Part shown: positions 15,946 to 32,819 of the stretch, one piece after another
Position numbering within the stretch: the stretch's first letter is position 1
Layout: each line of letters begins with the position of its first letter
Assembly (NCBI GenBank): GCA_025361885.1
Contig: JANYJF010000049.1
Coordinates: 1 to 39,958 of the forward strand
Length of the DNA: 39,958 nt
Source: Coriobacteriia bacterium
GTDB lineage: Bacteria > Actinomycetota > Coriobacteriia > Anaerosomatales > PALSA-660
Direction: 5' to 3'
The notes under the pieces: generated by a model
Databases searched by the model: none
The model's input: the letters and a program-made list of their open reading frames with translations, nothing else
Told to the model about the DNA's origin: nothing
Made by a program: the position numbers and the translations under genes

Positions 15946-15975
15946 CGTCGCATCATGATCAGGGGGCGAACGAAC

Positions 15976-17250
15976 ATGGATGTCGCTGGACCGAAAGCAC
16001 TCTCGACCACCACTGCGAAGAAACGCGTCATCATCGCCGGCGGCGGCTATGCGGGCATGACGATAGCCGTGACGCTGGCGCACCGGATGCGTCCGGCTGA
16101 CGATATCGAGATCGTGCTGGTGGAGTCGCGCCCATACCAGCAGGCGCTCTCTGAGCTCGACCTCGTCGCCGCGGGCACGTCACGGCCGCAGTTCGCAGAG
16201 CTGTGGCATGCGGACATCTTCCGAGGACTGCCCATCACCTGCGTCTACGAACGGCTGGAGTGCGTGGAGCCGTCGACGCACTGCATCACCGTCGGGCCGC
16301 GCGGCGAGACGGGCGACGTGATCCCCTACTGGCGCCTCGTGGTGGCAACAGGCGCCATCGCCACGACGCCCCCCGTGCCCGGGCTCAAGGAGCACGCCGT
16401 CACCATGTGGTGCGTGCCGGACGCCCACGAGCTGCAACGTCGGATCGAGAAGCAGTTCAAGATCGCCGCGATGCTGCCCGACCGCGCCGACCGGGAGGCG
16501 GCGCTGAGCTTCACGGTCGTCGGCGGCGGGGCGACCGGTGTCGAGATCATCGGCACCGTCGCCTCGGAGCTGCCCCGGATGATCCGACGCGCCGGGCTCG
16601 ATCCCACCGAGATGAAGCTGCGCCTGGTCGAGGGCCGCTCCGACATCCTGTTCGATCTGCCTGAGACGCAGCGCCTGCGCGCCCGCCGCCGGCTGGCCAA
16701 GATGGGCGTCGAGGTCGTGCTGGGCGAGAAGCTCACCCGGGTCGAGGACGGCGTCGCGTACGTCGAGTCGGGCCGGGCCATCCCCTCGCCCGTTCTCGTG
16801 TGGTGCGGCGGTGCCCACGCGGACCCCGACGCCGTCCGATGGGGCATGTCCTTCGACAACTCCGGCCGCCTGGTGTGCGACTCGATGCTCAAGTCCACGG
16901 ACGCGGACGACATCTACGTCATCGGGGACGTGGCGGCGTTCAAGGACCCGAAGAACGGACGGGTTCTCCCGATGCTCGCCCAGTTCGCCATCCGCGAGGC
17001 CGAACAGGCGGCGGTCAGCATCCTGTCCGAGGCGCGGGGCGGGCAGCCGGAGCCCTTCGCGCCACACATGCATGGCGAGTTCGTCTCGGTCGGCCCGCAC
17101 TGGGGCGTCGGGTGGATGTTCAAGCTCAACGTGAGCGGTTGGTTCGCCATCTTCATGAAGCGGCTCACGTACGTGATGTACTGGCTGCAGGTCGGCAGCT
17201 TCCGGCTGGCGGCCCGGCGCACGCGACAGATGCTGAGGTTGCGCAGGTAG
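15976..17250 (+). CDS. Type II NADH dehydrogenase-like FAD-dependent pyridine nucleotide oxidoreductase
   Basis: GGGYAGMTIAVTLA and VVGGGATGVEIIGTVASEL dinucleotide folds, YVIGDVAAF FAD motif, C-terminal amphipathic/hydrophobic tail (GWFAIFMKRLTYVMYWLQVGSFRLAARRTRQM). Confidence 0.9.
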   Translation: MDVAGPKALSTTTAKKRVIIAGGGYAGMTIAVTLAHRMRPADDIEIVLVESRPYQQALSELDLVAAGTSRPQFAELWHADIFRGLPITCVYERLECVEPSTHCITVGPRGETGDVIPYWRLVVATGAIATTPPVPGLKEHAVTMWCVPDAHELQRRIEKQFKIAAMLPDRADREAALSFTVVGGGATGVEIIGTVASELPRMIRRAGLDPTEMKLRLVEGRSDILFDLPETQRLRARRRLAKMGVEVVLGEKLTRVEDGVAYVESGRAIPSPVLVWCGGAHADPDAVRWGMSFDNSGRLVCDSMLKSTDADDIYVIGDVAAFKDPKNGRVLPMLAQFAIREAEQAAVSILSEARGGQPEPFAPHMHGEFVSVGPHWGVGWMFKLNVSGWFAIFMKRLTYVMYWLQVGSFRLAARRTRQMLRLRR

Positions 17251-26522: not shown

Positions 26523-26939
26523 CTAGATGTAGTACATGGGCGACGAGACCGCGTCGAGCTCGGCCTGCCGCTTCGACAGGGACGAGAGGTCCACGGCCTC
26601 GAGCTCGCTCTCAAGACGGGCGGCGGCCTCGGCCCACATCTCACTCACGGCCGAGCCCGTGATGCGCGGGACGTCGAGCACGTCGCCCTGCAGAGCCCGC
26701 ACGATCTCGGCCACCGATATCTCTGACGCGGGACGGGCGAGGGCGCAGCCGCCGCCCGCCCCGCGCTGACACGTGATCAGGCCCCGCTTCGCGACTGAGG
26801 TGAGCTGCTGCTCCAGGAAGCGTCGCGGCAGTCCGAGCTCGTCCGCCAGGTCCCCGGCGACAACGTACTCGCCGACGGGGACGGCCGCCAGCGCGGTCAA
26901 GGCGCGCAGAGCATAGTCGAGACGCTGTGAGACGCGCAT
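26523..26939 (-). CDS. Rrf2 family transcriptional regulator (CymR/IscR-like, lacking an IscR-type Fe-S Cys cluster)
   Basis: MRVSQRLDYALRALTALAAVPVGEYVVAGDLADELGLPRRFLEQQLTSVAKRGLITCQRGAGGGCALARPASEISVAEIVRALQG. Confidence 0.93.
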   Translation of the reverse strand: MRVSQRLDYALRALTALAAVPVGEYVVAGDLADELGLPRRFLEQQLTSVAKRGLITCQRGAGGGCALARPASEISVAEIVRALQGDVLDVPRITGSAVSEMWAEAAARLESELEAVDLSSLSKRQAELDAVSSPMYYI

Positions 26940-26941
26940 CG

Positions 26942-27901
26942 TCAGCTCCCGTAGCCTTCCCACAGTACCGTCGACAGATAGCGCTCTCCGGTGGACGGCG
27001 CGACGGTGACGATGGCCTTGCCCGCGGCCTCGGGCCGAGCGGCGACCTTCAGTGCGGCCACTACGTTCGCGCCCGACGAGATGCCCACGAACACGCCCTC
27101 TTCCGCCGCCAGCCGACGCGCCATCGCGACTGCCGCGAGACCTTCGACCGTCAGGACCTCGTCGAGCACGTCGAGGTCGAGCGTGACGGGGATGAAGTTG
27201 GCTCCGATGCCCTGGATGACGTGAGGACCGGGTGTGAGCGGCTGGCCGGCGAGCGTCTGCGTGATGATCGGCGACTCGGCCGGCTCCACGGCGATCGCGA
27301 GGGCGGAGCCGTACCTCTCCTTGAGGTACCGGCCGGCGCCGCTGACCGTCCCGCCGGTCCCGACACCCGCGATGAAGGCGAAGAGCTGCTCGTCGCCCAG
27401 CGCGGCCTCGACCTCTGGCCCGGTCGTCTCGTAGTGCGCGCGGGGGTTGGCGGGATTCTCGAACTGCCCGGGGATGAATGCGCCGGGGATGGAGTCGGCG
27501 AGTTCCCTCGCCTTGTCGACCGCGCCTTTCATGCCGAGCGCCTTGTCTGTGAGCACGAGTTCAGCGCCGAAGGCGGCCAGCAGCTTGCGGCGTTCGATCG
27601 AGAAGCTCTCAGGCATCGCGAGTATGACGCGGTAGCCACGCTGGGCTCCGACGAGCGCGAGTGCGATCCCTGTGTTGCCCGAGGTCGGCTCGATGATGAC
27701 CGACCTGCCCGGCTCGATGACCCCGCGGGCCTCGGCGTCGTCGAGCATCGCGCGGCCGATGCGGTCCTTGACCGATCCGCCTGGGTTGCGGGACTCGAGC
27801 TTGACGTACACGCGACCAGGCAGACCCTCGTCCAAGCGCGTGAGCCTGACGAGCGGGGTGTCGCCGATCGTGTCGATGACTGTGGGGAGCTGGCTGGTCA
27901 T
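26942..27901 (-). CDS. cysK: Cysteine synthase (O-acetylserine sulfhydrylase)
   Basis: IGDTPLVRLTRLDEGLPGRVYVKLESRNPGGSVKDRIGRAML PLP-Lys motif; PTSGNTGIALALVGAQRGY; GVGTGGTVSGAGRYLK. Confidence 0.96.
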   Translation of the reverse strand: MTSQLPTVIDTIGDTPLVRLTRLDEGLPGRVYVKLESRNPGGSVKDRIGRAMLDDAEARGVIEPGRSVIIEPTSGNTGIALALVGAQRGYRVILAMPESFSIERRKLLAAFGAELVLTDKALGMKGAVDKARELADSIPGAFIPGQFENPANPRAHYETTGPEVEAALGDEQLFAFIAGVGTGGTVSGAGRYLKERYGSALAIAVEPAESPIITQTLAGQPLTPGPHVIQGIGANFIPVTLDLDVLDEVLTVEGLAAVAMARRLAAEEGVFVGISSGANVVAALKVAARPEAAGKAIVTVAPSTGERYLSTVLWEGYGS

Positions 27902-27982
27902 GTCGCGCCTCCTGGAGCGCCGATGTGCATGTGGATGCACCGAAGATACCCCACGGCGGGCTATAGTCTCAAGCGATTCAAC

Positions 27983-28418: not shown

Positions 28419-29072
28419 TCAGATGCGGACGAAGACCTCGCCACCCAAGACGGTGACGGCGAAGGTGCGGACGTCGGCGTCGGGATGGTCGGTCGTCCCG
28501 GTGCGCACGTCATACCGCCATCCGTGCCAGGGGCACATCACGAAGTGGCCGTCGAGGTACCCCTCGCCAAGCGGCGCCCACAGGTGCTTGCACACGTTCT
28601 CGAGACAGAAGAACTCACCGTCGACGCGGAACAGCGCGAGCTTCCGCTTCCCCACCGCGACCACGCGACCTTGGCCGTCGGCGAGATCGCCGGTCGCCGC
28701 CACCCTCACGTCGACGGGACCATCCGGCGCCTCGATCACCCCGTGCAGCGTACTGCCGTCTTCGACATCGGTGCGGATGAACAGCCCGCACCAGCACTTG
28801 CTCATGGCGGAGAACTGGTCGGTATAAAACGGGATGCACGGGCAGACGATCTTCAGGTCTTCCTTCGGGTCGCCGGTGCGCATCCGGCACGGGCAGTAGA
28901 CGTCCCCGTCACGGTCGAGGACCTCGATCTCACCCTCCAGCACCATCGCGACGAAGTCCTCGTCGGTGTTGAACTTGTAGCCGAGCCGGGCCGCGAACGG
29001 GCCCATATAGGCCTTCAGGTCGTCGATCGTTGTGCCCGGCGAGAACCGGCGCTTGGACGTGGCGTCGCTCAC
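28419..29072 (-). CDS. Fusion of an FTR catalytic (beta-subunit-like) domain and a C-terminal Rieske [2Fe-2S] domain
   Basis: N-terminal CPCRMRTGDPKEDLKIVCPCIPFYTDQFSAMSKCWCGLF (CPC-x14-CPC-x13-CWC) matches FTR catalytic architecture; C-terminal CKHLWAPLGEGYLDGHFVMCPWHGW is a Rieske CxH...CxxH motif. Confidence 0.9.
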   Translation of the reverse strand: MSDATSKRRFSPGTTIDDLKAYMGPFAARLGYKFNTDEDFVAMVLEGEIEVLDRDGDVYCPCRMRTGDPKEDLKIVCPCIPFYTDQFSAMSKCWCGLFIRTDVEDGSTLHGVIEAPDGPVDVRVAATGDLADGQGRVVAVGKRKLALFRVDGEFFCLENVCKHLWAPLGEGYLDGHFVMCPWHGWRYDVRTGTTDHPDADVRTFAVTVLGGEVFVRI

Positions 29073-29314
29073 AGGTGCAACAGCTTCTGCATCTTGGGCT
29101 TGTTGAAGCCCACGATGACCTCACCATCCACTTCGATGACAGGGAACGACGTGCCGCCGGACAGCCGTTTGACCTCGGAGACGGCCTCCTCGCGCTCGGA
29201 CCCGGTCAGCATATCGACCTCCACCACGTCGAACGAGACACTGTTCTCTTCCAGATACTTGCGCGCCATCTTGCAGTACGGACACGTGGATAGCGCGTAG
29301 ACCTTGGTAGCCAT
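29069..29314 (-). CDS. Glutaredoxin-like protein (CPYC)
   Basis: MATKVYALSTCPYCKMARKYLEENSVSFDVVEVD...GGTSFPVIEVDGEVIVGFNKPKMQKLL; stop overlaps the FTR-Rieske start by 4 bp. Confidence 0.93.
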   Translation of the reverse strand: MATKVYALSTCPYCKMARKYLEENSVSFDVVEVDMLTGSEREEAVSEVKRLSGGTSFPVIEVDGEVIVGFNKPKMQKLLHL

Positions 29315-31934: not shown

Positions 31935-32819
31935 ATGTGCCAGTTTTGCGTGAAGCATGGCGACGGCAAGAGGTGGTATCTCGAGGCGTCTACCTATGCG
32001 CACGACCTCGACCAGGATTTGAAGCGGCGCGAGTACCTCATCGATTTCGTACGCGACTTCGGGGACAGCCGCGAGTGGACGAAGCGCACCATGCCGCTGC
32101 TCGATCGCGCTCCCGAGCCGATACGCGGTGTCGGAGCGGCGCTGTTCACCAGGACCATGAAGAAGAACCACTTCGGGCAGCCGGTGCCCATCGAGGAGTG
32201 CGCACGGATCTTCGATATCGCAACGTCGGTCGTGCGCCTGCCCTGCCCGTGTCGCTACCACGCGGGAACGCCGGACGAGGGCTACTGCCTGGCGATCACG
32301 ACCAAGCCGATCGACGCCTTGCTGGAAGAGGCCTTCGCCGCCTACGATGTCGGGCCTGACGTCTCGAAGTTCCAGCGCCTCACCAAGACCGAGGCCATGA
32401 AGCTGCTGCGTCGCGCCGAGGACGAGGGACTCATGCATTCGGTGTGGACGTTCCAAAGTCCGTTTATCGGCGCCATCTGCAACTGCAACATCGAGAGCGG
32501 CTGCATGGCGATGGATCTCACCGTCACGCACCGCGCGCCCATCATGTTCAAAGGCGAGTACATCGCGCGGGTGGACGAGGAGACGTGCCTCGGCTGTGCC
32601 GCCTGCGTCGAGCGCTGCCCGTTCGGGGCGATGGCCATCGACCCCGCATCCCAGCGCGTCGTGATCGACGCGGAGGCATGCTATGGTTGCGGCACGTGCA
32701 GGTCGGGCTGCGCTTTCGACGCGATCACTCTGCGCGACCGGACGACCGGCGAGCCGCTCACGGTTCCGGACGCCGCCGCGGGCGCGACCGATCCCGCAGC
32801 GATGCCGGCGGCCGTCTGA
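31935..32819 (+). CDS. 4Fe-4S dicluster ferredoxin-like protein with additional N-terminal Cys motifs
   Basis: C-terminal CLGCAACVERCPFGAM and CYGCGTCRSGCAFDAI; upstream MCQFCVKHG, CPCRYH and CNCNIESGC cysteine motifs. Confidence 0.88.
   Translation: MCQFCVKHGDGKRWYLEASTYAHDLDQDLKRREYLIDFVRDFGDSREWTKRTMPLLDRAPEPIRGVGAALFTRTMKKNHFGQPVPIEECARIFDIATSVVRLPCPCRYHAGTPDEGYCLAITTKPIDALLEEAFAAYDVGPDVSKFQRLTKTEAMKLLRRAEDEGLMHSVWTFQSPFIGAICNCNIESGCMAMDLTVTHRAPIMFKGEYIARVDEETCLGCAACVERCPFGAMAIDPASQRVVIDAEACYGCGTCRSGCAFDAITLRDRTTGEPLTVPDAAAGATDPAAMPAAV

Follow-up and report, generated by a model that had tools for sequence, protein, structure and literature searches.

The closest described relatives of the protein reported here are the ferredoxin:thioredoxin reductases (FTRs) and ferredoxin:disulfide reductases (FDRs), a family in which a [4Fe-4S] cluster cleaves a disulfide in two one-electron steps. 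The catalytic subunits of plant and cyanobacterial FTRs (PDB 1dj7 and 2pu9) belong to the same family (PF02943) as the fusion protein described below and have six cysteines arranged as CxC/CxC/CxC, but the last of these is CHC where the fusion has CWC, and they act on thioredoxin as a heterodimer with a variable subunit that is reported to be exclusive to oxygenic phototrophs (PMC9025218). The FDR of Methanosarcina acetivorans (4tpu) is the best solved sequence match to the fusion, shares its FTR-type catalytic domain and CPC-x14-CPC spacing, and likewise stands alone without the plant variable subunit. However, FDR has CYC in place of CWC, and a rubredoxin in place of the Rieske domain (seen directly in loci L122, L124, L125, and L135); the fusion itself has no match to the Pfam rubredoxin profiles.

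A Desulfotalea psychrophila protein (7pwe) has the same pairing of glutaredoxin (Grx, residues 8-77) and FTR (residues 81-177), although these are joined in one chain that lacks a Rieske domain, whereas the Grx of the fusion locus is a separate, overlapping gene. This natural Grx-FDR fusion is thus a precedent for Grx as a partner of the FTR fold. The FtrB double-selenoprotein (NF041072) is also of the FTR family, with selenocysteine at the redox-active cysteines, but is without a Rieske domain, and the fusion scores only 42.4 bits against this model, far below its cut-off of 160. The C-terminal domain of the fusion resembles, in sequence and in predicted fold, the Rieske ferredoxins of aromatic dioxygenases (CarAc 1vck, NDO 2qpz, and BphA3); these are free carriers for oxygenases, whereas the Rieske domain here shares a chain with a disulfide reductase, in a lineage of anaerobes.

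Organization of the fusion locus

The window, which is the whole stretch of 39,958 nucleotides that was analyzed, has the following features, all on the minus strand and listed in the direction of transcription.

29069..29311, minus strand: CPYC glutaredoxin (NrdH/YruB-like), 80 aa, directly upstream of the fusion (Pfam Glutaredoxin, 3.2e-16)
28419..29072, minus strand: fusion of an FTR/FDR catalytic domain and a Rieske domain, 217 aa, GTG start (translation, Pfam)
28758..29018, minus strand: FTR/FDR [4Fe-4S] disulfide-reductase domain of the fusion, aa 19-105, with CPC60-62, CPC77-79, and CWC93-95
28485..28709, minus strand: Rieske [2Fe-2S] domain of the fusion, aa 122-196, with C161, H163, C180, and H183
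26942..27940, minus strand: cysteine synthase A (cysK), downstream (TIGR01139, 406 bits, above the cut-off of 351)
26523..26963, minus strand: Rrf2-family regulator, overlapping the end of cysK (Pfam Rrf2, 4.2e-24)

The initial annotation had described a 217-aa open reading frame at 28419-29072 in which CPC-x14-CPC-x13-CWC is followed by a complete Rieske motif, and had assigned FTR catalytic and Rieske domains to this one frame. The coordinates are exact, with the GTG start at 29072 and the stop at 28421..28419 on the minus strand, and both motifs can be read in the translation, as CPC(60-62)-x14-CPC(77-79)-x13-CWC(93-95) and C161-K-H163-x16-C180-P-W-H183. Pfam likewise puts the two domains in the same frame and far above the curated cut-offs (22 bits for FeThRed_B and 20.3 bits for Rieske), with FeThRed_B (PF02943) matching aa 19-105 at 76.1 bits (E 2.6e-21) and Rieske (PF00355) matching aa 122-196 at 67.2 bits (E 1.2e-18). 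Profile score, six-cysteine pattern, and FTR fold all place the protein in PF02943, and profile and CxH...CPxH ligands place its C-terminal domain in PF00355; it is a member of the FTR/FDR family from which the rubredoxin and CYC of FDR and the CHC of plant FTR are absent. No NCBIfam model spans both domains in an NCBIfam profile search. Following FTR-family numbering, we take C62 and C95 to be the redox pair and C60, C77, C79, and C93 to be the cluster ligands.

The full-length AlphaFold model of the fusion has a pLDDT of 85.5, with a low-confidence loop at the cluster (blocks of pLDDT 54-57), and the fold matches of its Rieske half are dioxygenase Rieske ferredoxins. When the FTR domain is modeled on its own (pLDDT 79.7), it has 11 credible PDB matches (probability 0.99-1.00; TM ∼0.5-0.65), all of them FTR or FDR and headed by 7pwe, then 4tpu, then the plant-type FTRs, with nothing else credible. 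By phmmer, the FTR domain matches 4tpu and 7pwe with E values of ∼1e-9, and plant and cyanobacterial FTRs (1dj7 and 2pu9) weakly, at ∼1e-4.

The Grx gene is directly upstream of the fusion in all 45 reference loci that have upstream sequence, including the divergent L085; a 46th, which begins at a contig end, was left out of this count. In 38 of the 45 loci its stop codon shares 4 nucleotides with the beginning of the fusion gene (GTGA in the window), which suggests that the two genes are translationally coupled. The cysK gene and the Rrf2 regulator are looser neighbors than Grx, being close to the pair in 12/46 and 17/46 reference loci, respectively; the regulator resembles CymR, with a score below the cut-off of that model.

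Distribution and conservation

The fusion is common in the order Anaerosomatales (OPB41) of the class Coriobacteriia, whose members are anaerobes that oxidize H2 or formate and reduce Fe(III) and sulfur compounds (PMC9686372). It is present in 58 of 69 genomes of the order and in 46 of the 51 high-quality ones; 57 of the 58 matches span essentially the whole protein, and that in G017 is cut short by the end of a contig. The Grx-fusion pair is absent from the other 11, five of which are high quality, and is therefore dispensable. In a class sample of 300 Coriobacteriia genomes, the 58 matches to the fusion are these same order members, and the 231 genomes outside the order have none. A divergent fusion (L085, 31% identity) is present in another Coriobacteriia genome, S30M_St_1, and none of the 40 genomes nearest to this one has a fusion.

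A scan of 84,980 genomes (one per species) with the patterns KCWCGLF[IV] and GD[VI][YF]CPCR, which would miss fusions from other phyla if their motifs differ, returned 46 fusions and two archaeal FTR-only proteins; sampling at the phylum level covered Actinomycetota only. The fusion records are named as Coriobacteriia, Anaerosomatales, or other actinobacteria, with two labeled Slackia and Aeromicrobium. None of the plasmid records has a true FTR-Rieske form covering 80% of the query, and the viral contigs searched contain no relative of the fusion. One long plasmid match (H5, from Caballeronia) was rejected as a Rieske ferredoxin only, without the FTR motif.

In an alignment of 44 fusions that reaches down to 31% identity, the six cysteines of the FTR domain, W94, the four Rieske ligands, and W185 in the second Rieske loop are invariant, and every one of the 46 fusions counted in reference genomes, L085 among them, has CWC.

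Unfused and rubredoxin-containing versions

Genome G587, from another actinobacterial class, has four touching genes (L119:1667-2909) coding for a Rieske protein (107 aa), a Grx, an FTR with CWC (111 aa), and a second Rieske protein (111 aa), all confirmed by Pfam and both Rieske proteins ligand-complete. The G587 FTR groups with the fused FTRs with 95/93 support, on a long branch, and the string is an unfused form of the Grx-FTR-Rieske unit. A tree of the Rieske domains is too weak to place their ancestor.

In other actinobacteria (L122, L124, L125, and L135), Grx is followed by an FTR with a C-terminal rubredoxin-like domain, which is the FDR arrangement; the rubredoxin-like profile match was demonstrated for L122. 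Rubredoxin and Rieske therefore share one position. The parallel with rubredoxin-fused FDR that had been drawn in the initial annotation is well supported, with the same Grx-FTR layout carrying rubredoxin in place of Rieske and with FDR and Grx-FDR as the nearest structures.

The residue between the last two cysteines sorts the types encountered here: it is tryptophan in the fusion, in G587, and in an N-terminal rubredoxin type, tyrosine in FDR, lysine in the archaeal L086 and L087, and histidine, as in plants, in a longer FTR-family protein of G008, G023, and G426. Loci L127:1692-2327, L128:1710-2333, and L138:1432-2079 code for a longer, second protein of the FTR family, with CHC; in L127 and L128, whose genomes have the fusion as well, it adjoins a gene that, as a guess from sequence, codes for a BadF-like ATPase.

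Electron flow through the fusion

Our preferred reading, held with moderate confidence, is that the fusion is a Rieske variant of FDR that is cotranslated with its substrate Grx and reduces it. In its favor are the presence of both domains in one protein, the invariance of all cluster and active-site residues, the constant association with Grx, the positional match to FTR-rubredoxin, the existence of a string of four unfused genes, and the in-frame TGA codons described below. A soluble low-potential donor, either a ferredoxin or a flavoprotein reductase, would pass single electrons to the Rieske cluster or dock beside it, and each electron would move on to the [4Fe-4S] cluster, whose ligands are C60, C77, C79, and C93. 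This cluster would cleave the C62-C95 disulfide in two one-electron steps through a cluster-ligated thiol, as in FTR, and C62 would then attack the disulfide of the CPYC Grx, which would pass the reducing power to disulfides of the cell. We infer this cycle, including its direction and the role of electron transfer through the Rieske domain, from homology to FTR and FDR. Electron entry, as presumed for rubredoxin in FDR, is the most likely role of the Rieske domain and the least certain part of the scheme. The Rieske loop is without the serine of bc1-type proteins and without the extra cysteine pair and has the invariant Trp185, for which a low potential near -150 mV is expected, and the active-site disulfides of plant FTR are near -320 mV. 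Transfer from Rieske to FTR would therefore be uphill, and values of this order, if they apply, speak against a plain downhill Rieske relay. The initial annotation had suggested a relay fed from a higher-potential donor, or a sensor that tunes thiol reduction, and either is a candidate role.

One alternative, which we consider unlikely, is that ferredoxin reduces the [4Fe-4S] domain directly and that the Rieske domain serves for structure, docking, or oxygen sensing, in a role like that of the FTR variable subunit. The plant FTR catalytic subunit does take electrons directly, a small protective second subunit being sufficient (PMC9025218), and many FTR-domain proteins (G552, L086, and L087) have no additional redox domain. 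However, purely structural use would not need conservation of the ligands, yet all four are kept even at 31% identity, the unfused version retains two ligand-complete Rieske genes, and rubredoxin, which fills this position in other family members, also carries electrons.

Slightly less likely again is that the Rieske domain is an electron exit, with the FTR domain oxidizing Grx or cellular dithiols and passing electrons singly through Rieske to a higher-potential acceptor, such that the protein would be a thiol oxidase or a redox sensor that drains thiols. By the expected potentials, transfer from a dithiol to Rieske would be downhill, and Trp185 in place of serine fits a low-potential Rieske cluster. 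Members of the order are also lithotrophs that respire Fe(III) or sulfur compounds by reducing them (PMC9686372). Nonetheless, all biochemically known FTRs and FDRs act as reductases, the rubredoxin fusion, which also has Grx as its neighbor, belongs to the FDR group, and there is no conserved acceptor gene nearby.

A chance fusion of unrelated neighbors without functional coupling, or an assembly artifact, has nothing in its favor beyond the general possibility and is already refuted by conservation: the gene-fusing sequencing error that the initial annotation had named as a risk is excluded by occurrence in independent assemblies of 58 of the 69 order genomes, and the 46 loci in reference genomes, the constant domain order, and the short linker make either origin highly improbable.

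The fusion does not take the place of NADPH thioredoxin reductase, a role that is rejected because a thioredoxin-reductase-type flavoprotein scores above cut-off in 56/61 relatives; the fusion is therefore an additional, and at most a parallel, thiol system. For this little-studied order of subsurface anaerobes it is probably a second way of reducing thiols, next to NADPH thioredoxin reductase. An FTR-Rieske fusion is not described in the literature searched, a scope that leaves out subscription journals and domain databases, and the pairing of a Rieske-fused FDR with Grx points to an undescribed wiring for electron delivery to disulfides. A broader proposal is more tentative and somewhat less likely than not to hold, namely that Rieske replaces rubredoxin or free ferredoxin as a third type of electron input, is order-wide, arose when adjacent Grx-FTR-Rieske genes fused, and has acquired a selenocysteine nucleophile in at least one lineage. 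The accessory module varies (rubredoxin, Rieske, or no module) but Grx is constant, which makes the role of accessory clusters in FDRs directly testable; ready constructs for comparing accessory modules come from this natural exchange, from the separate genes of the unfused string, and from the divergent fusion.

A selenocysteine candidate

FTRs with selenocysteine at exactly the two redox-active cysteine positions have been published (PMC2398784; PMC13188914). In one fusion, from genome G010 (L016:1501-2130, equal to L052:6001-6633), an in-frame TGA replaces the codon for C62, and an FDR homologue in genome G442 (L121, 2294-2554 and downstream, minus strand) has a TGA at the position equivalent to C95, the last cysteine of CYC, past which the frame runs on into the rubredoxin domain. 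SelB scores above cut-off in G010, and tRNA-Sec is above the gathering score in both G010 and G442. No Rfam RNA element matches a SECIS at the G010 TGA, and the local fold is no better than shuffles (z -0.36), so that the hairpin that can be drawn there is not evidence. Since the assembly coverage of the contig is 1.6 and the SECIS fold is no better than chance, this TGA may be a sequencing error. Both genes are selenocysteine candidates; the G010 fusion may carry selenocysteine at the nucleophilic position, and the TGA, if real, marks C62 as the nucleophile.

A possible electron donor and another gene of the window

Clustering of all neighbors reveals no electron donor gene that is conserved beside the pair. 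The window codes for an NADH dehydrogenase-like FAD protein (15955-17250, plus strand; a guess from sequence), and what is apparently the same FAD family is near the fusion in 12/46 loci, on the opposite strand; it is a possible electron donor for the fusion. The window also contains, at 31935-32819 (plus strand), a gene for a 294-aa protein with an N-terminal cysteine-rich part (CPCR...CNC) that lies outside every Pfam profile and a C-terminal two-cluster ferredoxin domain, and this protein is also close to the pair in L041, L042, L043, and L045.
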